64,000 bases of DNA from Anaeromyxobacter soli (lineage in GTDB: Bacteria > Myxococcota > Myxococcia > Myxococcales > Anaeromyxobacteraceae). The DNA lies in the NCBI RefSeq assembly GCF_022808855.1, contig NZ_JAKZLF010000007.1, positions 62,001 to 126,000 of the forward strand, read 5' to 3'. Made by a program: the position numbers and the translations under genes. Each line of letters opens with the position of its first letter. Position 1 is the first letter of the stretch. The notes under the pieces are model-generated. The model ran no database searches. It saw only the letters and a list, made by a program, of their open reading frames with translations, and was not told where the DNA came from. Positions 3,899-50,751 of this stretch are shown in pieces.

Positions 3899-6880
3899 GT
3901 GGCGCGTGAACGAGGTCAGCCGAGCGCGGGTGACGGCCCCGCCGGCGTGGCGCCGGCCGCTGGAGGCGGCGTGTCGGCGCTGCTCGGGGAGCTGGCGCGC
4001 GCGCCGGAGGTGCAGCTCGGCTCCGCCTGGGAGCACGTGCTCGGGCCGGGTGCCGTCGTGGGCCGCTTCGAGCTCCTGCGCGAGATCGGGCGCGGGGGCT
4101 TCGGGATCGTGTACGAGGCCCGCGACCGCGAGCTCGGCCGCTCGGTGGCGTTCAAGGCGATCCGGGCGGGAGACCGGGCGGCGCTGCAAGAGGACCGGCT
4201 GCTGCGCGAGGCCGAGGCCGCGGCGCGGCTCTCGCACCCGAACATCGTCACCCTCTTCGACGCCGGCCGCTGCGAGCACGGCCCCTACCTCGTGCTCGAG
4301 CTGCTCCGCGGCGAGACGCTCGCGGACCGCCTCACCGGCGAGCCCCTCGCGACCGGCGAGGCGCTGCGGATCGGCTCCGCCGTCGCGCACGCGCTCGCGC
4401 ACGCCCACGCAGCGGGCGTCGTGCACCGGGACCTCTCCCCCGGCAACGTCTTCGTCTGCGGCGACGGGCGCGTGAAGGTGCTCGACTTCGGGCTCGCGCA
4501 CGCGTTCGGGCGGCGGCGGATCAGCGGCGGCACCCCCGGGCACATGGCGCCGGAGCAGTGGCGCGGGGCGCCCGAGGACGAGCGGACGGACGTGTACGCG
4601 CTCGGGGTCCTCGTCTACCGGATGGTTGCGGGGACGCTCCCGTTCCCCGACGACGCGGAAGGGAGCGCGACCGCGAGCCCCAGGCCCGCGCCGGCCCTCC
4701 ACGTCCCGGACGCGCCCGCGCTCGGCGCCCTCCTGGCGCGGATGCTCGCGAAGGACCCGGTCGACCGGCCCCGCGACGGCGCGGAGGTCGCGGCGGCGCT
4801 GGACGCGCTCCGCACCGGGCCCGAGCGGACGCCCGGGGCGCCCCCAGCGCCCGCGCGCCGTCGCCGCCCTGCCCGCGCACGGTGGCTCGCGGCGGCGGCC
4901 GCCCTCCTCGCGCTCGCGGTGGGCGGAGGGGTCGTCGCCCTGCGGGGGTCCGGAGCGACGGCGCCTCCCGCCGCGGGGCAGGGCGCGACGCGCGTCACCG
5001 TCGCGGTCGCAGACTTCGAGAACCTCACCGGGGAGCCGGAGCTGGCGGGCCTCTCGGGGATGCTCATCACCTCGCTCGAGCAATCGCGGCGGCTGTCGGT
5101 CCTGACGCGAGTCCGGATGCTCGACATCCTGCGCCAGCTCGGGCGCGAGAAGGTGACCGGGGTGGACGAGGCGCTCGGCCGCGAGGTGGCGCGCAGCGCG
5201 GGGGCCCGCGCGCTGGTGCTCGCTTCCATCCGGCGCTTCGACGCGCTCTACGCCATCGAGCTGAAGGCGCTCGACCCCCACACGAGCGAGTACCTCTTCA
5301 CGCTCCAGGAGACGGGCCAGGGGAAGGCGAGCGTCCCCGGGATGATCGACCGGCTCTCCGAGGAGACGCGCCAGCGGCTGCGGGAGAGCCCGGCGGAGGT
5401 GAGCGCCTCGCGCGTCGATCTGGCGTCCGCGACGACGGGCAGCTTCGAGGCGTACGCGCACTACTTCCGCGGCGAGCAGGCGCAGGACGCGACGCGTTAC
5501 CAGGAGGCGCTGCAGGAGTACCGGGCCGCCCTGGGCGTCGACCCGGACTTCGCGCTGGCGTCCTACCGGATCGCGTACCTGGGCGAGTTCACCGGGCTCG
5601 ACGCGGCGGCGCGGCGCGCCGCCATCGACGCCGCGGTGCGGGGCGCGAGCCGCGTCCCCGAGAAGGAGCGGCTGCTCATCGAGGCCTGGAAGGCGCACGT
5701 GGACGGGGACGAGGAGCAGGCCCACGACCTGTACGCGCGCGCCGTCGCCGCCTACCCGCAGGACAAGGAGGTCCTCTACCTGGCCGGGGATCTCTACTTC
5801 CACGACGGAGACTCGTCGCAGGCGCTGGCGCTGTTCGAGCGCGCGCTCGAGCTCGACCCAATCTGGGAGCCGGCGCTCATGCACGTCACCGATGCGCTCG
5901 CCAGGCTCGGCCGCATCGACGAGATGCTCACCCGCAGTCGCAGCTGGGTCGAGAAGGCGCCGGGGGGAGCGTCGTATCGCGCGCTCGCGCGCGCCGAGAT
6001 GTCGTCCGGGCGCTTCGAGGAGGGGGAACGTGACGCCCGTCGCGCCTTCGAGCTCGACGGGAACATCTTCTCCCGCATCACCCTCGCCGAGGCGCTGGAT
6101 CTCTCGGAGCGTCACGGCGAGTCCGAGGCGCTCGTGCGCCCCGTCGCCGAGCGCGCGGAGGCCTCGCCGGATCGCGCCAAGGCCGCCGCCGCGCTCGCCA
6201 GCTCCCTCGCGTACCAGGGCCGGCGGCGCGAGGCGTTCGAGGTGATCGACCGGTTCGCGGCCCACGCCACCTCGCCGAGCGAGCCGACCCTGCGGCTGCT
6301 GCACCTCCTCGGCGAGGAGCCCCAGGACGCTGCGCGCGAGGAGGCCCGGCGGCTCGCCGCCTCCGGGTGGCGATGGGAGGGGCTCCCCTCCGTCCTCGCG
6401 CTCACCGGCGACCTGCAGGCGGCCCGCGCGCAGGCGCGAGCGCTGCCGCCCGGACCGTCGCGCGCGCTGTACGAGGGCGCCGCGGCCTGGCGCGGCGGCG
6501 ATCCGGAGCGAGCGCGGGCGCTGCTGCGCCCCCTCCTCCTCTCCCCGGGTCGCGGCGGAGACCTCGCGATCGGCGCGACGTGGATCGCGGCGAGCGTCGC
6601 GCTCGAGTCCCACCACGACGAGGAGGCGATCGGGGAGCTGCGCGCGCTGCGACAGCGGCCGGGTGGCCCGGCGCGCAGCTGGATGTACCCGCGGAGCTTC
6701 TACCTCGAGGCGGTGGCTCTCGACCGGCTCGGCCAGCGCACGAGCGCGCGGGAGTGTCTCGATCACCTCCTCGCGCTGCTGCACGGCGCGGATGGCGACC
6801 TGCCTCTGCTCGCCCAGGCGAAGGCGCTGCGGCGGCGGCTCGCAGCGGACGCGCGCCCCGCGAGCTCCGCGCGCAGGTGA
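3899..6880 (+). CDS. Ser/Thr protein kinase with TolB-like and TPR domains
   Basis: A 993-residue membrane-anchored kinase starting at GTG. The kinase domain runs from about residue 54 to 310: glycine loop GRGGFG, ATP-binding lysine in VAFKAI, catalytic loop HRDLSPGN near 175, VLDFGLAH near 195 and MAPEQW. The usual lysine of HRDLKPEN is serine, while the catalytic Asp and Asn remain, so activity may be altered. A single membrane helix lies at about 327-352. Beyond it, VAVADFENLTGEPELAGLSG resembles the FlgO/TolB-like domains often found on such kinases, followed by TPR-like helical repeats to the C-terminus. It probably senses an envelope signal. No partner phosphatase is adjacent. Confidence 0.88.
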   Translation: MARERGQPSAGDGPAGVAPAAGGGVSALLGELARAPEVQLGSAWEHVLGPGAVVGRFELLREIGRGGFGIVYEARDRELGRSVAFKAIRAGDRAALQEDRLLREAEAAARLSHPNIVTLFDAGRCEHGPYLVLELLRGETLADRLTGEPLATGEALRIGSAVAHALAHAHAAGVVHRDLSPGNVFVCGDGRVKVLDFGLAHAFGRRRISGGTPGHMAPEQWRGAPEDERTDVYALGVLVYRMVAGTLPFPDDAEGSATASPRPAPALHVPDAPALGALLARMLAKDPVDRPRDGAEVAAALDALRTGPERTPGAPPAPARRRRPARARWLAAAAALLALAVGGGVVALRGSGATAPPAAGQGATRVTVAVADFENLTGEPELAGLSGMLITSLEQSRRLSVLTRVRMLDILRQLGREKVTGVDEALGREVARSAGARALVLASIRRFDALYAIELKALDPHTSEYLFTLQETGQGKASVPGMIDRLSEETRQRLRESPAEVSASRVDLASATTGSFEAYAHYFRGEQAQDATRYQEALQEYRAALGVDPDFALASYRIAYLGEFTGLDAAARRAAIDAAVRGASRVPEKERLLIEAWKAHVDGDEEQAHDLYARAVAAYPQDKEVLYLAGDLYFHDGDSSQALALFERALELDPIWEPALMHVTDALARLGRIDEMLTRSRSWVEKAPGGASYRALARAEMSSGRFEEGERDARRAFELDGNIFSRITLAEALDLSERHGESEALVRPVAERAEASPDRAKAAAALASSLAYQGRRREAFEVIDRFAAHATSPSEPTLRLLHLLGEEPQDAAREEARRLAASGWRWEGLPSVLALTGDLQAARAQARALPPGPSRALYEGAAAWRGGDPERARALLRPLLLSPGRGGDLAIGATWIAASVALESHHDEEAIGELRALRQRPGGPARSWMYPRSFYLEAVALDRLGQRTSARECLDHLLALLHGADGDLPLLAQAKALRRRLAADARPASSARR

Positions 6881-42297: not shown

Positions 42298-42573
42298 TCA
42301 GGCATTGCGCCACGCGCGCTCGGCGCGAAGCACGAGCGCGCCGAGCGGCACGTCGAACGGCCAGGAGTCCGCGATCATCCGGCCGAGGCCCTCCTCGCGA
42401 TCGCGCTTCGGCGGGAGGGCGCCCGCCTCGAGGGAGGTCAGGTAGGACCGGAGCGTGTCCCGGCAGGCGCCGAGCTGGGTCGGGCAGAGCTGGTACTTCG
42501 GGGCCGCGAGCTCCGCCTCGATCTCGGCGAGCGCGCTGGCGACGAGGGTGCGGGCCTGGTTCCGGCGGTCCAT
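42298..42573 (-). CDS. Small protein of unknown function
   Basis: A 91-residue soluble protein, MDRRNQARTLVASALAEIEAE then a helical, charged region with two cysteines (LCPTQLGACRDTL) and a C-terminal FDVPLGALVLRAERAWRNA. I do not recognise a family. It is divergent from the menaquinone operon and ends 14 bases before the GH5 start. The open frame continues to 42663, across the shared dyad, but ATG 42573 is more plausible. Could be co-transcribed with the GH5 gene. Confidence 0.5.
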   Translation of the reverse strand: MDRRNQARTLVASALAEIEAELAAPKYQLCPTQLGACRDTLRSYLTSLEAGALPPKRDREEGLGRMIADSWPFDVPLGALVLRAERAWRNA

Positions 42574-42650
42574 CGGGCCCGCGTTGTATCCGACCTTCGC
42601 GCCGGGGGAAACCGTCGCGCCGCGGGGCCCGCCGCGCGCGGGGCCTTTCC

Positions 42651-42668
42651 GTTCAACGAACATTGAAA
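42651..42668 (+). promoter_or_regulatory. 18-bp dyad GTTCAAC-N4-ATTGAAA upstream of menaquinone operon
   Basis: The same element as at 33623-33640, matching at 14 of 18 positions, with identical spacing between half-sites. It lies 34 bases before the ubiD start, between that gene and a divergent small gene. Its near-palindromic form suits a dimeric regulator. The GbsR/MarR-like protein encoded at the end of this operon is an obvious candidate, but that is inference. Confidence 0.6.
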
Positions 42669-42701
42669 CCCGGCGGCGCCACTGGTACAGATCGCCGCGC
42701 C

Positions 42702-44231
42702 ATGGCCTACCGCTCCTTGCGGGAGTTCCTCGATCGGCTCGAGTCGGCGGGCGAGCTCGTCCGCGTGAAGGAGCCGGTCGACCCCGTGCTCGAGATGGCC
42801 GCGCTGGCGGACCGCGCGGCGAAGCAGGGTGGACCGGCGCTCCTCTTCGAGAACTTGAAGGGGCGGGCGCCCGGCGGGTTCCCGGTCGCGATGAACCTGT
42901 TCGGGACGCGCCGCCGCACGAGCTGGGCGCTCTCCTCCGAGGACTTCGAGGAGCACGCCCGGGAGCTGCGCGCGCTCTTGCACCTCGCCCCGCCGCAGTC
43001 GCTCTGGGACAAGCTCAAGATGCTCCCGAAGCTCGGGAAGCTCGCGACGATGACGCCGAAGCACGTCTCGTCCGCGGCGAGCCAGGAGGTCGTCGTCCGC
43101 GAGCCCGATCTCGGGAGCCTGCCGGTGCTCACCACCTGGCCGCACGACGGGGGGCCGTTCATCACGCTCCCGCAGGTCATCACGCGCGACCCGGAGACCG
43201 GCATCCGCAACGTCGGGATGTACCGGCTGCAGGTGCTCGGGCCGAGGCGGCTCGCCATGCACTGGCAGCTCCACAAGACCGCGACCGCGCACTACCGCGC
43301 CTACCAGAAGCGCGGCGAGCGGATGCCCGTCGCCATCGCGCTCGGCGGCGATCCCGCCCTCACCTACTGCGCGTCCGCGCCGCTGCCCCCGAACGTCGAC
43401 GAGTACCTGTTCGCCGGGTTCCTGCGCGGCGAGGCGGTGCGCATGGCGAAGGGCGTCGCGGTGGACCTCGACGTGCCGGCCGACGCGGACCTCGTCATCG
43501 AGGGCTTCGTGGACACCGCCGCGCCGCTCGTGCGCGAGGGACCCTTCGGCGATCACACCGGCTTCTACTCGCTCGCCGACGACTACCCCGCGCTCGACGT
43601 CGTCGCGGTGACGCACCGGCGCGACGCCGTCTACCCGGCCACCGTGGTGGGCCCGCCGCCGGTCGAGGACCAGTGGCTCGGCAAGGCGACGGAACGGATG
43701 TTCCTGCCCATGCTGCAGATGATCTTCCCGGAGATCGTCGACATGGCGATGCCGGTGGAGGGCGTGTTCCACAACCTCTGCCTCGTCTCCATCAAGAAGG
43801 ACCACCCCGGCCAGGCGAAGAAGGTCATCCACGGCCTGTGGGGCTCCGGCCAGATGGCGCAGACGAAGACGCTCGTGGTGTTCGACGAGGACGTGGACGT
43901 GCAGGACGTCTCCCAGGCCGCGTGGCGCGCCTTCGCGAACGTGGACGTGAAGCGCGACCTCGTCATCGCCGACGGGCCGGTGGACGTGCTCGACCACGCC
44001 GCCGCGCACTTCGCCTTCGGCGGCAAGATCGGCGTGGACGCGACGCGCAAGTGGGCCGAGGAGGGCGGGCGCGAGTGGCCGGAGGTCTGCGTCCACCCGC
44101 CCGAGGTGGTCGCGCGCATGGACGCGCTCTACGAGCGCCTCGTCCCGGGCGCACCGAAGCCGCGCCGCCCCCGCATCGCGGCGCCGCCCGCGGCCTCGTG
44201 GACTCCCCGGCGCGGAGGGATCCTCCAGTGA
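42702..44231 (+). CDS. ubiD: UbiD family decarboxylase (menaquinone branch, MqnL-type)
   Basis: A 509-residue prenylated-FMN-dependent decarboxylase. MAYRSLREFLDRLESAGELVRVKEPVDP is the typical UbiD opening; GGPALLFENLKG, GMYRLQVLGPRRLAMHWQLHKTA, IEGFVDT and REGPFGDHTGFYS follow in order. In the futalosine pathway it should decarboxylate the prenylated dihydroxynaphthoate intermediate. First gene of a seven- or eight-gene operon. Its cofactor comes from UbiX encoded at 44926. TACAGA lies 10 bases before the ATG. The C-terminal ~25 residues are Pro/Ala-rich and not conserved. Confidence 0.93.
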   Translation: MAYRSLREFLDRLESAGELVRVKEPVDPVLEMAALADRAAKQGGPALLFENLKGRAPGGFPVAMNLFGTRRRTSWALSSEDFEEHARELRALLHLAPPQSLWDKLKMLPKLGKLATMTPKHVSSAASQEVVVREPDLGSLPVLTTWPHDGGPFITLPQVITRDPETGIRNVGMYRLQVLGPRRLAMHWQLHKTATAHYRAYQKRGERMPVAIALGGDPALTYCASAPLPPNVDEYLFAGFLRGEAVRMAKGVAVDLDVPADADLVIEGFVDTAAPLVREGPFGDHTGFYSLADDYPALDVVAVTHRRDAVYPATVVGPPPVEDQWLGKATERMFLPMLQMIFPEIVDMAMPVEGVFHNLCLVSIKKDHPGQAKKVIHGLWGSGQMAQTKTLVVFDEDVDVQDVSQAAWRAFANVDVKRDLVIADGPVDVLDHAAAHFAFGGKIGVDATRKWAEEGGREWPEVCVHPPEVVARMDALYERLVPGAPKPRRPRIAAPPAASWTPRRGGILQ

Positions 44232-44929
44232 CCGTCCCGCTCCCCGGCGAGGCGCAGCGCGGCTCCGCGGTGCGGGCGATGTTCGACCGCATCGCCCCCC
44301 GCTACGACCTGCTCAACCGCGTCATGACGCTGAAGGTCGATCAGGCCTGGCGGCGGCGGCTCCTCGCGGACCTCGCGCCGCGGGACGGCGAGGCGCTGCT
44401 CGACCTGTGCGCCGGCACCATGGACGTCGCCGCGCTCGCCCGCGGGCGCGCGCCGGGGCTGCGCATCGTCGGCGCCGACTTCTCGTTCCAGATGCTGGCG
44501 CGCGGCGTCGAGAAGACCGGGCTGCCGGCCTCCCAGGCGGACGCGATGGCGCTGCCGTTCCGCGGGGCGCGCTTCGACCTCGCCACCGTGACCTTCGGGA
44601 TGCGGAACCTGGAGCGCTACGAGACGGGGCTCGCCGAGCTCGCGCGCGTGCTGAAGCCCGGGGGCCGGCTCGGCGTGCTCGAGTTCTTCCGGCCGGAGTC
44701 CAAAGGCTCGCGGTTCGTGCACGGCGCGTACAACCGGCTCGCGCTGCCCATCCTGGGCCGGATCCTCTCGCCCGATCCGGAGGCGTACCGCTACCTCGTC
44801 GCCTCCATGGAGCGCTTCGCCTCGCGCCCGGAGTTCGAGGAGGCGGCCCGGCGGGCGGGGTTCCGGGAGGTGCGCGGCGAGACGCTCTTCCCGGGCGTGT
44901 GCGGCCTCGTGACGGCGGTGCGCGCGTGA
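44228..44929 (+). CDS. menG: Demethylmenaquinone methyltransferase (UbiE/MenG)
   Basis: A 233-residue SAM-dependent methyltransferase that adds the ring methyl in the last step of menaquinone synthesis. Signatures: VRAMFDRIAPRYDLLNRVMTLKVDQAWRR, LLDLCAGTMDVAALA, FDLATVTFGMRNL and LKPGGRLGVLEFFRP. The usual LDVGTGTG of motif I reads LDLCAGTMD, a tolerated variant. It starts at GTG overlapping the ubiD stop (GTGA) and its own stop overlaps ubiX in the same way. Confidence 0.94.
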   Translation: MTVPLPGEAQRGSAVRAMFDRIAPRYDLLNRVMTLKVDQAWRRRLLADLAPRDGEALLDLCAGTMDVAALARGRAPGLRIVGADFSFQMLARGVEKTGLPASQADAMALPFRGARFDLATVTFGMRNLERYETGLAELARVLKPGGRLGVLEFFRPESKGSRFVHGAYNRLALPILGRILSPDPEAYRYLVASMERFASRPEFEEAARRAGFREVRGETLFPGVCGLVTAVRA

Positions 44930-45516
44930 AGCTCGTCGTCGCCGTCTCCGGCGCGTCCGGCGCGCCCTACGCGAAGCGGCTACTCGACTTCGTCGCCGCG
45001 AACGGCGAGAAGCACGGCGTCTCGCTGGACCTCGTCTTCACGCAGACCGGCAAGCAGGTCTGGAAGCAGGAGATCGGCTCCGAGCCGCGCTACCCGTTCC
45101 GGGTCTGGAAGAACCAGGACTTCACCGCGCCGTTCGCCTCCGGCTCGGCGCAGTACGACGGCATGGTCGTCGTCCCGTGCTCGTCGGGGGCCCTCGCGCG
45201 GATCGCGCACGGCATCTCGGTCGACCTCGTCGGCCGCGCCGGTGACGTGATGCTGAAGGAGGGGAAGAAGCTCGTGCTCGTGCTGCGCGAGACGCCCCTC
45301 TCGCTCGTCCACGCCCGGGCCATCACCCAGGTCATCGAGGCGGGCGCCGTCGTGCTGCCCGCCTCGCCGTCGTTCTACTCCGGGCCGAAGACCATCGAGG
45401 CGCTCGTCGACACGGTCGTGTCGCGCGTGCTCGACCGGCTCGGCCTGCCGAACGAGCTCATGAAGCGCTGGGAGGGGCTCGTGCCCCGCGCCCCCGAGCC
45501 GGTGGAGGAACCCTAG
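44926..45516 (+). CDS. ubiX: Flavin prenyltransferase UbiX
   Basis: A 196-residue enzyme that prenylates FMN to make the UbiD cofactor. VVAVSGASGAPYAKRLLDF is the phosphate-binding FMN loop; VVVPCSSGALARIAHGISVDLVGRAGDVMLKEGKKLVLVLRETPLS is the diagnostic block containing the conserved Ser-Ser and Arg residues. Starts at GTG within the methyltransferase stop and is immediately followed by mqnE (TAG then ATG). Its position next to ubiD fits a shared cofactor need. Confidence 0.95.
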   Translation: MKLVVAVSGASGAPYAKRLLDFVAANGEKHGVSLDLVFTQTGKQVWKQEIGSEPRYPFRVWKNQDFTAPFASGSAQYDGMVVVPCSSGALARIAHGISVDLVGRAGDVMLKEGKKLVLVLRETPLSLVHARAITQVIEAGAVVLPASPSFYSGPKTIEALVDTVVSRVLDRLGLPNELMKRWEGLVPRAPEPVEEP

Positions 45517-46740
45517 ATGATCTCGACCCTCGCGCACCGCGCCCTCGAGCGCGACGGCCTCGGCCCCATCCGCGACAAGGTCCTCTCCGGCGAGCGGCTC
45601 TCCGACGCCGACGCGCTGCGCCTCCTCGAGGCGACCGACCTCGCCGCGGTGGGCGCGCTCGCGAACCACGTCCGCGAGGCGCGCCACGGCGACCTCACCT
45701 TCTACAACCGCAACGTCCACCTGAACCCGACCAACGTCTGCGTCGCGACCTGCAAGTTCTGCTCGTTCGCGCGCAAGGACGATCAGGTGGCGTCCGAGGG
45801 CTACACGATGAGCCTCGACGACGCGGTCGCGAAGGTGCTCGCGCGCCGCGGTCTCGGGATCACCGAGGTCCACATCGTCTCCGGCCTCCACCCCGAGCTC
45901 CCCTGGGACTACTACCCGGAGCTCCTGCGCCGGATCCGCGCCGCCTGGCCCGAGCTCGCCATCAAGGCGTTCACCGCCATCGAGATCCACTTCTTCGCGG
46001 AGAAGTTCGGGAAGAGCTACGAGCAGGTGCTCCGCGAGCTGCACGCGGCGGGCATGGACACGATGCCCGGCGGCGGCGCCGAGATCTTCGCGAAGCGCGT
46101 GCGCCGCAAGATCTGCGACGACAAGGCGACCGCCGAGCAGTGGCTCGAGATCCACCGCACCGCGCACCGGCTCGGCCTCAAGACGAACGCGACCATGCTC
46201 TACGGCCACATCGAGCGGCTCGACGAGCGCGTCGATCACATGCGGCTCCTGCGCGAGCTACAGGACGAGACGGGCGGGTTCCAGGTCTTCATCCCGCTCG
46301 CGTTCCACCCCGAGCACAACATGATCGGCAAGGCGTTCCCCAAGCCGACCGGCTACGACGCGCTGCGCACGCTGGCGGTGGCGCGTCTCTACCTCGACAA
46401 CTTCGACCACGTGAAGGCGTACTGGGTGTCGCTCGGCGAGCGGCTCGCCCAGACGTCGCTCGCGTTCGGCGTGGACGACGTGGACGGCACCGTGCTCGAG
46501 GAGCGCATCTACCACATGGCCGGCTCGACCGTGCCGCAGGCGCTCTCGGAGCGGACGCTGCACGACCTCATCCGCGCCGCGGGCCGGGTGCCGGCGGAGC
46601 GCGACAGCCTCTACCGCGTGCTGAAGGTGCATCTTCCTGCCGGGGGGGCCGAGATGCCGGTCCCCCCGGACCCCTCGCACGCTCCGGTCCAGCCTCAGCC
46701 GGCTGGACCTCCGCTCGCCGCCGCCGCCCGCCGAGTCTAG
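45517..46740 (+). CDS. mqnE: Aminodeoxyfutalosine synthase MqnE
   Basis: A 407-residue radical SAM enzyme that joins 3-enolpyruvylbenzoate to the adenosyl group of SAM, giving aminodeoxyfutalosine. The [4Fe-4S] motif CVATCKFCSF has Cys75, 79 and 82; LNPTNVC before it, VSGLHPELPWDYYPELL and GGGAEIFAKRVRRKIC after it are characteristic of MqnE. The C-terminal ~35 residues are a Pro/Ala-rich tail. It starts directly at the ubiX stop. Confidence 0.94.
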   Translation: MISTLAHRALERDGLGPIRDKVLSGERLSDADALRLLEATDLAAVGALANHVREARHGDLTFYNRNVHLNPTNVCVATCKFCSFARKDDQVASEGYTMSLDDAVAKVLARRGLGITEVHIVSGLHPELPWDYYPELLRRIRAAWPELAIKAFTAIEIHFFAEKFGKSYEQVLRELHAAGMDTMPGGGAEIFAKRVRRKICDDKATAEQWLEIHRTAHRLGLKTNATMLYGHIERLDERVDHMRLLRELQDETGGFQVFIPLAFHPEHNMIGKAFPKPTGYDALRTLAVARLYLDNFDHVKAYWVSLGERLAQTSLAFGVDDVDGTVLEERIYHMAGSTVPQALSERTLHDLIRAAGRVPAERDSLYRVLKVHLPAGGAEMPVPPDPSHAPVQPQPAGPPLAAAARRV

Positions 46741-46748
46741 GACCCGCC

Positions 46749-48626
46749 ATGCCGAAGCTCCGCGCCGCCGCCGTCTCCTTCCTGAACGCCCACCCGCTCA
46801 CCGTCGGGCTCGAGGGCTCCGAGCGGATCGAGCTCGTCCTCGCCGAGCCGTCGCGCTGCGCCGCGATGCTGGAGGCCGGCGAGGTGGATCTCGCGCTCGT
46901 CTCGGTCGCCGCGCTCACCAAGGGCGAGTACGAGATCGTGCCCGGCATCGCCATCGGCGCGGACGGGCCGGTGCAGACGGTGGTCCTCGCCGGCGAGCAG
47001 TCGCCCGCGATCTGGGACGAGGTGTTCCTCGACACCGCCTCGCGCACCTCGCACGTGCTCGCCAAGATCGTCCTCGACGAGATGGGCGTTCACCCGACGT
47101 TCACGCCGATGCAGGCCGACGAGGGGCTCGCGCGCGCCAAGGGCCGGAAGGGCGCGCTCGTCATCGGCGACCGCGGCTTCGGGGTGCGCGCGAACCACAT
47201 CGTCGATCTCGGGCGAGAGTGGACGCACCTCACGGGCCTGCCCATGATCTTCGCGCTCTGGGCGGCGCGGCCGGGCCGCGTCTCGCCGGAGGACGTGCAG
47301 GAGCTGACGCGCGCCGCGCAGCACGGCCTCGGCGTCCGGACCGAGCTCGCCCAGCGCTTCGCCGCGCAGAAGGGCGGCGATCCGGAGCGCTACCGCCGCT
47401 ACCTCACCCAGCGGATCCGCTACGGGCTCGGGCCGCACGAGCTCGACGGCCTGGAGGCGTTCCTCGCCCGAGCGGCCGAGAAGGGCTTCCTGCCGCCGAT
47501 GAAGCTCCGCTTCGTCGACGACGTGGTCCGCACGGCGCGCACCCGGCGGGTGGTCTCGCTCGACACCGCGCTGCAGAAGGGCGCCGACGGCGAGCGGCTC
47601 GACGCCGACGAGGCGGAGCTGCTCGACGAGAAGGCCCCCCTCCTCGAGCTCGGCCTCGCCGCCGACGCGCGCCGCCGCGCGCTGCACCCGGACGGCGCCG
47701 TCACCTACATCGTCTCGCGCAACGTGAACTACACGAACGTCTGCACGACGGCGTGCCACTTCTGCGCGTTCTACCGGCCGCGCGGCCACAAGGACGCGTA
47801 CGTCCTCGACCGCGACGAGCTGACCCGCAAGATCGACGAGACGGTGGCGCTCGACGGCATCGAGATCCTCCTCCAGGGCGGCCTGCACCCGGACCTCGGC
47901 GTGGAGTGGTACGAGGAGCTGTTCCGCTGGGTGAAGGAAAAGTGGCCGGTGATCAACCTGCACGCGCTCTCGCCCGAGGAGATCTGGCACATCGCCCGCA
48001 CGAGCGACCTGCCCCTCGACGAGACGATCCAGCGGCTCATCGCGGCCGGGCTCGACTCGATCCCCGGCGGAGGCGCCGAGATCCTCGACGACGAGGTGCG
48101 CCGCCGGATCGCGCCGCTCAAGTGCTCGACCGACGAGTGGCTCTCCGTCATGAAGGCCGCCCACGTGAAGGGGCTGCGCAGCACGGCCACCATGATGTTC
48201 GGCGTCGGCGAGGAGGCGCGCCACCGGGTGGCGCACCTCGCGCGGCTGCGCGAGCTGCAGGACGAGACGGGGGGCTTCACCGCCTTCATCTGCTGGCCGT
48301 TCCAGTCGGCGAACACGCGGCTCACCGCGTCCGACACGAGCGCGCAGGCCTACCTGCGGGTGAACGCGGTCTCGCGGCTCGTCCTCGACAACGTGCCGAA
48401 CCTGCAGGCCTCCTGGGTCACCATGGGCGGCGGGGTGGCCCAGGCCTCCCTGCACATGGGCTGCAACGACTTCGGCTCGGTGATGATCGAGGAGAACGTG
48501 GTCTCGGCGGCGGGCACGACCTTCAGCATGGACTCGGAGGAGGTCGAGCGGCACATCCGCGACGCGGGCTTCCGCGCCGTGCGGCGGAACATGAAGTACG
48601 AGCGGCTGGGGGATCGGATCGCGTGA
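46749..48626 (+). CDS. MqnA-MqnC fusion: chorismate dehydratase plus cyclic dehypoxanthinyl-futalosine synthase
   Basis: One 625-residue frame carries two enzymes usually encoded by separate genes. Residues ~1-265 are MqnA, a periplasmic-binding-fold dehydratase making 3-enolpyruvylbenzoate from chorismate (AAVSFLNAHPLTVGL, PSRCAAMLEAGEVDLALVSVAAL, DTASRTSHVLAKIVL). Residues ~285-625 are the radical SAM enzyme MqnC, with Cys332/336/339 in CTTACHFCAF, LLQGGLHPDLGVEWYEELFRW and [22 protein letters not shown]. MqnA is the first step and MqnC the fourth, so the fusion does not join consecutive steps. No internal stop or frame change. ATG 46749 follows mqnE by eight bases. Confidence 0.92.
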   Translation: MPKLRAAAVSFLNAHPLTVGLEGSERIELVLAEPSRCAAMLEAGEVDLALVSVAALTKGEYEIVPGIAIGADGPVQTVVLAGEQSPAIWDEVFLDTASRTSHVLAKIVLDEMGVHPTFTPMQADEGLARAKGRKGALVIGDRGFGVRANHIVDLGREWTHLTGLPMIFALWAARPGRVSPEDVQELTRAAQHGLGVRTELAQRFAAQKGGDPERYRRYLTQRIRYGLGPHELDGLEAFLARAAEKGFLPPMKLRFVDDVVRTARTRRVVSLDTALQKGADGERLDADEAELLDEKAPLLELGLAADARRRALHPDGAVTYIVSRNVNYTNVCTTACHFCAFYRPRGHKDAYVLDRDELTRKIDETVALDGIEILLQGGLHPDLGVEWYEELFRWVKEKWPVINLHALSPEEIWHIARTSDLPLDETIQRLIAAGLDSIPGGGAEILDDEVRRRIAPLKCSTDEWLSVMKAAHVKGLRSTATMMFGVGEEARHRVAHLARLRELQDETGGFTAFICWPFQSANTRLTASDTSAQAYLRVNAVSRLVLDNVPNLQASWVTMGGGVAQASLHMGCNDFGSVMIEENVVSAAGTTFSMDSEEVERHIRDAGFRAVRRNMKYERLGDRIA

Positions 48627-49849
48627 CCCCGCGCGTCTACAGCGCGCCCTGGGTGCTCGCCGGGCGGGCGGCCGCGGGCGCTACCCCCGCCGCCCTCCGC
48701 GACGGCGCCGTCGCCCTCGAGGGCGATCGCGTCCTCGCCGCCGGACCGCGCGCCGCGGTCGAGGAGCGCTTCGGCGCGGGCGAGCGGCTCGACGCGGTGA
48801 TCCTCCCCGCGCTCGTGAACGCGCACCTCCACCTCGAGCTCTCGCACATGGCCGGGCGGGTCGCCGGCGGCGAGGGGCTCCCCGCCTGGATCCACCTCTT
48901 CATCTCCGCCCGCGCGCTCCCGCGCCCCGAGGAGGAGGCGGCGCAGGCGATGATCATGTCCGCCGAGGACATGGTCCGCGCCGGCGTCGCGGCGGTGGGG
49001 GACGTCTCGAACACGCTCGGCTCGGTCGCGCCGCTCGCCGCGGCCGGGTTCTCCGGCACCGTCTACCAGGAGGTGTTCGGGGTGACGCCCGCGCGCATCG
49101 AGGCGGCGCTCGCGAGCGCCCGCGCCGCGCGCGCGGCCTGCCCGCCCGCGCCCGGCCTGCGCATCGCGCTCTCGCCCCACGCGGTCTACTCCACCCACGG
49201 CGCGACCCTCGGGCAGCTCCTCGCCGCCGGCCCCGCCTCCATCCACCTCGCCGAGGATCCCGCCGAGCGCGCGCTGTGCGCGACCGGCACCGGCGACTTC
49301 GCCCGCATGTTCAGCTCGCTCGGCGCGGCCCGCTCGCTCCGGCCCCGCGCGCGCTCGGCCGTGGCGTTCGTCGCCGAGCACCTCGCGCCCCACCACCTCG
49401 CGGTCCACTGCGTGGACGTGGACGAGGACGACGTCGCCCTCCTCGCCCGCACCGGCGCGACGGTGGTCCTCTGCCCGCGCTCGAACCGCTTCATCGTCGG
49501 GAAGCTCCCGCCCGTGGCGGCGCTCCTCGCCGCGGGCGTGCCGCTCGCGGTGGGCACCGACTCGCTCGCCTCCTGCCCCTCGCTCTCCCCGCTCGCGGAC
49601 CTCGCCCTGCTCCGCCGCGAGCTCCCGGAGATCCCGGCGGCGACGCTCCTCCGGCTCGCGTGGAACGGGCCGGCGGTCGGCGCCCCCCACGTCGGCGCGC
49701 TCGCGCCGGGCGCGGCGCCGGGCGTCCTCGCCGCTCCGCTCGAGGGCGCGCGCGTGGAGGACCCCTTCGACTTCGTCGTCTCGGCGTTCGGCGCGGAGGA
49801 GCGCCCGTTCACCTGGCTCGCGCGCCCGCGCGCGGAGGCCCTCGCATGA
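48623..49849 (+). CDS. Amidohydrolase, probable aminodeoxyfutalosine deaminase
   Basis: A 408-residue metal-dependent amidohydrolase of the TRZ/ATZ/SAH-deaminase type: NAHLHLELSHM (HxH metal site) near residue 68, a His in SIHLAEDPAE, a His in LAVHCVDVDEDD and the final Asp in VGTDSLASCPSLSPL. Starts at GTG overlapping the mqnAC stop. Place and motifs suggest it converts aminodeoxyfutalosine to futalosine, between MqnE and MqnB. It is unrelated in sequence to the classical adenosine-deaminase-type enzyme, so the function rests on context plus family. Confidence 0.85.
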   Translation: MTPRVYSAPWVLAGRAAAGATPAALRDGAVALEGDRVLAAGPRAAVEERFGAGERLDAVILPALVNAHLHLELSHMAGRVAGGEGLPAWIHLFISARALPRPEEEAAQAMIMSAEDMVRAGVAAVGDVSNTLGSVAPLAAAGFSGTVYQEVFGVTPARIEAALASARAARAACPPAPGLRIALSPHAVYSTHGATLGQLLAAGPASIHLAEDPAERALCATGTGDFARMFSSLGAARSLRPRARSAVAFVAEHLAPHHLAVHCVDVDEDDVALLARTGATVVLCPRSNRFIVGKLPPVAALLAAGVPLAVGTDSLASCPSLSPLADLALLRRELPEIPAATLLRLAWNGPAVGAPHVGALAPGAAPGVLAAPLEGARVEDPFDFVVSAFGAEERPFTWLARPRAEALA

Positions 49850-50751
49850 CCTCTCCCACCCCGGCCCGCGCCGCCCCTGCGGCGCCCGGCGGGACCGTCG
49901 CCGCGCTCGCGCGGATGGTGAAGCTCAGCCACTCGCTCTTCGCGCTGCCGTTCGTGGCGGCCGCGGTGGTGCTCGTCTCGCGCGAGGCGCGGCTCGAGCC
50001 CGTGCGGCTCGCGCTCGTGGCGCTCGCCGTCGTCGCGGCGCGCACCGCCGCGATGGCGATGAACCGCATCGCCGACCGCGCCTTCGACGCGCGGAACCCG
50101 CGCACCGCGCGGCGCGAGCTCGTGACGGGCGAGGTGTCTCCGGGGGCGGCCATCGCGCTCCTCGCCGGGAGCGGCGCGACCTTCGTCGCCGCGGCGGCGC
50201 TCATCGCGCCCATCTGCGGCTGGCTCGCCCTGCCGGTGCTGGCGATCCTGCTCGGCTACTCGTACGCGAAGCGCTTCACCTGGGCCTGCCACCTCTGGCT
50301 GGGCGTCGCGCAGGCGCTCGCGCCCATCGGCGTCGCCATCGCCCTCACCGGCGCGGCGCCCGCCTCGGCGATCGCGCTCGGCCTCGGGGTCGGGGCCTGG
50401 ATCGCCGGCTTCGACGTCTTCTACTCGCTGCAGGACATGGACTACGACCGCGGCGCGGGGCTCCGCTCCATCCCGGCGCGCTTCGGCGTGCGCGGCGCGC
50501 TCGCCTGGGCCCGCGGGCTCCACGTCCTCGCCATCGCCTGCGTCGCCCTCGCGGGCGTGCTCGGCGGCCGGGGCGCGGGCTGGTTCGCCGGGACGGTGGT
50601 GCTCGCCGCGGTGGTCGCGGCCGAGCACGTCCACGTGGCGCCGCGCGGGCAGCTCCGGCCGGAGCGGATCAACGTCGCGTTCTTCAACTACAACGCCTTC
50701 GCGTCGATCGCCTTCGCGCTCGCCGCGCTCGTGGATCTCGCCCTCGCCTGA
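49846..50751 (+). CDS. mqnP: UbiA-family prenyltransferase (MqnP-type)
   Basis: A 301-residue polytopic inner-membrane prenyltransferase with about eight helices. The two Asp-rich motifs are NRIADRAFDARNPRTARREL (NxxxDxxxD) near 80 and DMDYDRGAGLRSIPARFG near 205. In the futalosine pathway it attaches the polyprenyl chain to dihydroxynaphthoate. The donor would come from the synthase at 33664-34713. ATG overlaps the deaminase stop by four bases. Confidence 0.93.
   Translation: MTSPTPARAAPAAPGGTVAALARMVKLSHSLFALPFVAAAVVLVSREARLEPVRLALVALAVVAARTAAMAMNRIADRAFDARNPRTARRELVTGEVSPGAAIALLAGSGATFVAAAALIAPICGWLALPVLAILLGYSYAKRFTWACHLWLGVAQALAPIGVAIALTGAAPASAIALGLGVGAWIAGFDVFYSLQDMDYDRGAGLRSIPARFGVRGALAWARGLHVLAIACVALAGVLGGRGAGWFAGTVVLAAVVAAEHVHVAPRGQLRPERINVAFFNYNAFASIAFALAALVDLALA

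Follow-up and report, generated by a model that had tools for sequence, protein, structure and literature searches.

The window, that is, the whole 64,000-nucleotide stretch of Anaeromyxobacter soli DNA that was analysed, carries on its + strand a menaquinone gene cluster in which genes of the UbiD, MenG/UbiE, UbiX and MqnE types are followed by a fused mqnA-mqnC gene, an amidohydrolase gene and a UbiA/MqnP-like prenyltransferase gene. The features of the cluster and the parts of the fused gene are as follows:

42552..44231, + strand: UbiD-type menaquinone decarboxylase (TIGR03701, 650 bits, above the cut-off of 495.9)
44228..44929, + strand: MenG/UbiE-type methyltransferase (TIGR01934, 203.5 bits, above cut-off)
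44926..45516, + strand: UbiX-type flavin prenyltransferase (TIGR00421, 177.6 bits, above cut-off)
45517..46740, + strand: mqnE, aminofutalosine synthase, a separate gene upstream of the fusion (TIGR03700, 513.9 bits, above the cut-off of 434.55)
46749..48626, + strand: fused mqnA-mqnC gene, 625 aa (range includes the stop codon)
46758..47480, + strand: predicted MqnA (chorismate dehydratase) domain, residues 4-244 (PF02621, 178 bits; MqnA-type PDB matches)
47502..47591, + strand: junction, about residues 252-281, a variable linker and then the native MqnC N-terminus VSLDTALQKGADGERLD, with no conserved internal start
47592..48605, + strand: predicted MqnC (cyclic dehypoxanthinyl futalosine synthase) domain, residues 282-619 (TIGR03699)
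47742..47765, + strand: CX3CX2C radical-SAM cluster motif CTTACHFC, residues 332-339, intact in the window protein
48623..49849, + strand: amidohydrolase, aminofutalosine-deaminase-like (NF006269, 115.8 bits, below the cut-off of 320; PF01979)
49843..50751, + strand: UbiA-type prenyltransferase, MqnP-like (TIGR01475 above cut-off; MqnP models 213-245 bits, below theirs)

Eight bases separate the mqnE stop from the ATG of the fusion, an AGGA lies a few bases before that ATG, and the GTG start of the amidohydrolase gene overlaps the fusion's TGA. The frame is open from ATG to TGA over 625 codons and encodes a product with a computed mass of 68,733 Da (68.7 kDa), which bears out the uninterrupted 625-residue frame and the size of about 68 kDa given in the first-pass annotation. 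The only repeats flanking the gene are short, chance-like matches. Because the window is 74% G+C and contains 28 stretches of 625 or more codons without a stop, the bare length of the frame is weak evidence for a fusion. The fusion is demonstrated by homology to the two families that runs in frame through the junction and recurs in 22 of the 24 genomes of the window's family.

The first half matches the Pfam family VitK2_biosynth (PF02621) at residues 4-244 with 178 bits (cut-off 26); this family spans both MqnA and MqnD and cannot by itself tell them apart. All nine clear PDB matches of this half are annotated as chorismate dehydratase (MqnA) or are still 'hypothetical' entries (e.g. SCO4506), and no MqnD entry is among them. 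Additionally, the second PF02621 protein of the genome is a stand-alone MqnD-like gene on a different contig. An assignment of the fused domain to MqnD was rejected on these grounds, and the N-terminal half is classified as a predicted MqnA-type chorismate dehydratase. It shares the whole PF02621 domain with stand-alone MqnA (Streptomyces coelicolor SCO4506, PDB 7AHR, 2NXO), with an E value of ~4e-18 to the S. coelicolor structure, but differs from the solved enzymes in its low sequence similarity to them and in being joined at its C-terminus to MqnC.

The second half passes the NCBIfam equivalog model for MqnC (TIGR03699, residues 282-619) with 476 bits, above the cut-off of 428.1, and contains the Pfam domains Radical_SAM (326-497) and CofH_C (509-619). 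Against the MqnE model it reaches 328 bits, under the MqnE cut-off of 434.55, and the tree splits MqnE from MqnC with a support of 100, so that the C-terminal half is assigned by sequence to MqnC as distinct from its paralogue MqnE. With stand-alone MqnC this half shares the equivalog match above cut-off and the intact CX3CX2C; in the fusion, by contrast, the native MqnC N-terminus is tied to MqnA via a short variable linker. The PF02621, TIGR03699 and PDB matches thus agree with the two domain identities first proposed. When the genome of the window was searched, the fusion and MqnE were the only MqnC relatives found, and the fusion is therefore taken as the sole MqnA and the sole MqnC of this genome. 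Comparison of the window with three congeners gives dN/dS values of 0.13-0.22 for the MqnA half and the MqnC half alike, which shows purifying selection on both.

In the futalosine pathway, MqnA converts chorismate into 3-enolpyruvylbenzoate (step 1), MqnE uses 3-enolpyruvylbenzoate, and MqnC acts after base removal; the earlier statement that the two fused enzymes catalyse non-consecutive steps is right by this established order. The genome also holds MqnE above its cut-off, the MqnD-like gene and the deaminase-like gene below its cut-off, and no protein of the window genome (G000) exceeds the NCBIfam cut-off for futalosine hydrolase, the best match scoring 39.6 bits.

Of the 24 genomes of the window's family, 22 carry the full-length fusion, with identities of 76-100%. 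The two exceptions are G019, in which the first 33 residues alone are present, at a contig end, and G013, which is 74% complete and gives no match. A genome of the same order but another family (G143) carries the fusion at 49% identity. A contig scan, covering the best 80 of 189 relatives, places the fusion in Anaeromyxobacter and related records and, among those same 80, in six MAGs that carry the labels proteobacterium, Myxococcales or Deltaproteobacteria (51-53% identity); L078-L083 are among the loci that have it. In a second phylum-level group, that of one of the six fusion-bearing MAGs, 20 of 237 genomes give a full-length match to P0001, and G243 has a further fused frame. One of 294 genomes of the Planctomycetota group (G510) is fused. 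Proteins with both domains thus map to the window's family, a second family, a second phylum-level group and one Planctomycetota-group genome, and the first-pass description of the fusion as unusual stands for bacteria at large, where it is rare, but not for the window's family, where it is general, or for the second phylum-level group, where it is common. In genome G199 (L082), part of the MqnC C-terminal half occurs a second time, from about 6954 of the locus and ~2.5 kb behind the fusion, with 67% identity to the window protein.

Every MqnC examined from actinomycetes and Bacillota is a stand-alone protein, and in two Streptomyces the mqnA and mqnC genes are adjacent. In other genomes of the Planctomycetota group, unfused mqnA and mqnC lie side by side in the same frame, and one or two stops keep them apart. 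The adjacent genes of the Actinomycetota and Planctomycetota groups therefore have the gene order of the fusion, some of them in frame with one or two stops, but they give two proteins where the window gene gives one.

It might be argued that the fusion is merely apparent, with an internal start or proteolysis parting MqnA from MqnC in the cell, and the window's junction does contain three candidate start codons (ATG 251, GTG 259 and GTG 268). However, the positions of such ATG and GTG codons shift between genomes, three loci (L015, L019 and L022) have none of them, and no conserved Shine-Dalgarno motif was found at the junction across the compared genomes. An internal start, raised from the outset as an objection to the fusion, has no support in this comparison, and we consider the existence of two separate proteins very unlikely. 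An assembly or sequencing error, by which two genes would have lost the stop or frameshift that separates them, has a probability close to nil: nothing was found to support it, and the same fusion recurs in independent genomes, in several of them within a single contig. The first-pass annotation had linked such an error to separate genes in all close relatives, and the relatives compared here do not have separate mqnA and mqnC. For G014 a stop was reported, but it maps to the C-terminal end of the gene and not to the junction.

In the trees, the MqnA domains of the fusions group in one clade with a support of 98, and their MqnC domains likewise with a support of 98-99, but with one unfused row (L084) nested among the latter. 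The simplest reading of these trees is essentially one fusion event, in which the stop between neighbouring mqnA and mqnC was lost, with vertical descent and some transfer thereafter. The nested row, at about 4093-5175 of its locus, is an unfused MqnC of a Planctomycetota MAG that stands beside G510 in the tree and has MqnE directly upstream; it may represent a later split of a fusion.

Six genomes have MqnE in the same frame as well. Five of them (L240, L241, L242, L243, L248) encode MqnE, MqnA and a degenerate MqnC in one frame, and the sixth, G198 (L081), encodes an intact MqnE-MqnA-MqnC chain in an ORF of 1299 codons. The early remark that channelling would require MqnE to associate is strengthened by these six triple fusions, which come from other lineages, the window's own MqnE being separate.

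The second phylum-level group additionally includes 22 genomes in which MqnA is followed in frame by a degenerate MqnC-like part without CX3CX2C (loci L178, L180, L186-L193 and L236-L249). Against TIGR03699 these parts score 119 bits (e.g. P0002) or 54 bits versus the cut-off of 428, and they thus lack both the score and the motif of MqnC. In proteins of the G317 type, a 27-column aligned block with the cluster loop is absent, with the linker and the C-terminal region still recognisable. The dead domains range from ~165 to 340 residues, and those shrunk to about 165-250 may be eroding rather than working. G437 is similar to the dead fusions but fragmentary. For annotators, these proteins mean that an MqnC-like C-terminus does not guarantee MqnC activity.

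A separate MqnC-like gene with CX3CX2C intact is present in all 22 dead-fusion genomes, and also in G437, but in none of the 26 intact-fusion genomes, the window's included. Its product has MqnC as best model, at 285-293 bits, below the TIGR03699 cut-off. From this distribution we infer that the separate protein probably took over the MqnC step in the dead-fusion genomes. The counts do not stand for that many independent events, because just three supported independent pairs exist, which also puts significance out of reach of an independent-pairs sign test. The MqnC-like gene at L216:678-1772 (- strand) and its kin at L217-L235 form a distinct family on a very long branch, which may be a divergent MqnC.

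A tree with the dead MqnC domains in one clade, and with it their single origin, was rejected (p-AU 1e-16), and the supported tree branches demand at least three changes of state between intact and dead MqnC. The dead domains have dN/dS values of 0.05-0.43, i.e. purifying selection; in diverged pairs, dN/dS is about 0.11-0.43 in the dead domain versus 0.04-0.26 in the attached MqnA. The repeated loss of the catalytic centre with the MqnC half still attached suggests a role of this half beyond catalysis.

We interpret the fused gene as encoding a bifunctional enzyme of the futalosine pathway with a single old fusion origin, a reading to which we assign, on the comparisons above, a probability of about 0.88. 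Specifically, the N-terminal MqnA domain would convert chorismate into 3-enolpyruvylbenzoate, the C-terminal MqnC domain would later cyclise dehypoxanthinyl futalosine by radical-SAM chemistry, and the steps in between (MqnE as step 2, and the deaminase/nucleosidase) would be carried out by separate proteins in this organism. Both domains are predicted to be active. The location of MqnA and MqnC on one chain could be taken to indicate direct substrate channelling from one to the other, but this is hardly credible, since the steps are non-consecutive, dead MqnC domains remain fused, and the intervening MqnE step and base removal mean that such channelling is not expected. That dead MqnC domains are kept, and that MqnE fusions exist, suggests a second, non-catalytic role, in which the MqnC barrel would also hold MqnA, perhaps near MqnE, such that the product of step 1 could be handed to step 2. 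In its full form, this proposal makes the barrel both enzyme and scaffold, docking MqnA to MqnE, which in at least three lineages would have become, after replacement by an MqnC-like protein, a SAM-less pseudoenzyme that solely holds MqnA or MqnA-MqnE. We put it forward tentatively and with the odds leaning against it, as some dead domains are down to about 165-250 residues and the MqnE association comes from other lineages, the MqnE of the window genome being separate.

Most of the same facts are accounted for by a neutral history, in which a stop was lost by chance and MqnA later became dependent on the barrel for its folding or solubility, with neither docking nor channelling. This alternative is a serious contender that falls a little short of even odds: it fits the non-consecutive steps, the adjacent same-frame mqnA and mqnC that make fusing easy, the faster evolution of the dead domains relative to the MqnA part, their variation in length (~165-340 residues) and the erosion of some of them to about 165-250, yet MqnE has been gained in the same chain and the barrel stayed in place when its catalytic function was lost, independently, three or more times, both of which hint at a use in assembly. 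A point against our overall reading is that in the majority of bacteria MqnA and MqnC serve the pathway as separate proteins. The bifunctional enzyme, as we read it, would join non-consecutive steps of menaquinone (vitamin K2) synthesis and is conserved across deep divergence. The intact, dead and triple fusions constitute a natural experiment on the catalytic versus the structural role of the radical-SAM domain, and the fusion series makes a possible MqnE-MqnA-MqnC assembly directly testable.

In the literature searched, no paper describes the MqnA-MqnC fusion, its dead variant or the triple fusion. A survey of futalosine pathway distribution names, in its main text, neither MqnA, MqnC nor the fused gene (PMC13386864). 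The MqnA and MqnC enzymes are each already known, and the fusion may already have been named by automatic annotation. A known parallel is CofGH / FbiC, the bifunctional FO synthase (model PRK09234), in which a CofH-family radical-SAM enzyme, homologous to the MqnC half, is also fused to an enzyme of its own pathway. The two domains of CofGH / FbiC perform consecutive chemistry and are both radical-SAM enzymes, whereas the fusion partner of MqnC is a non-radical dehydratase whose step is non-consecutive.
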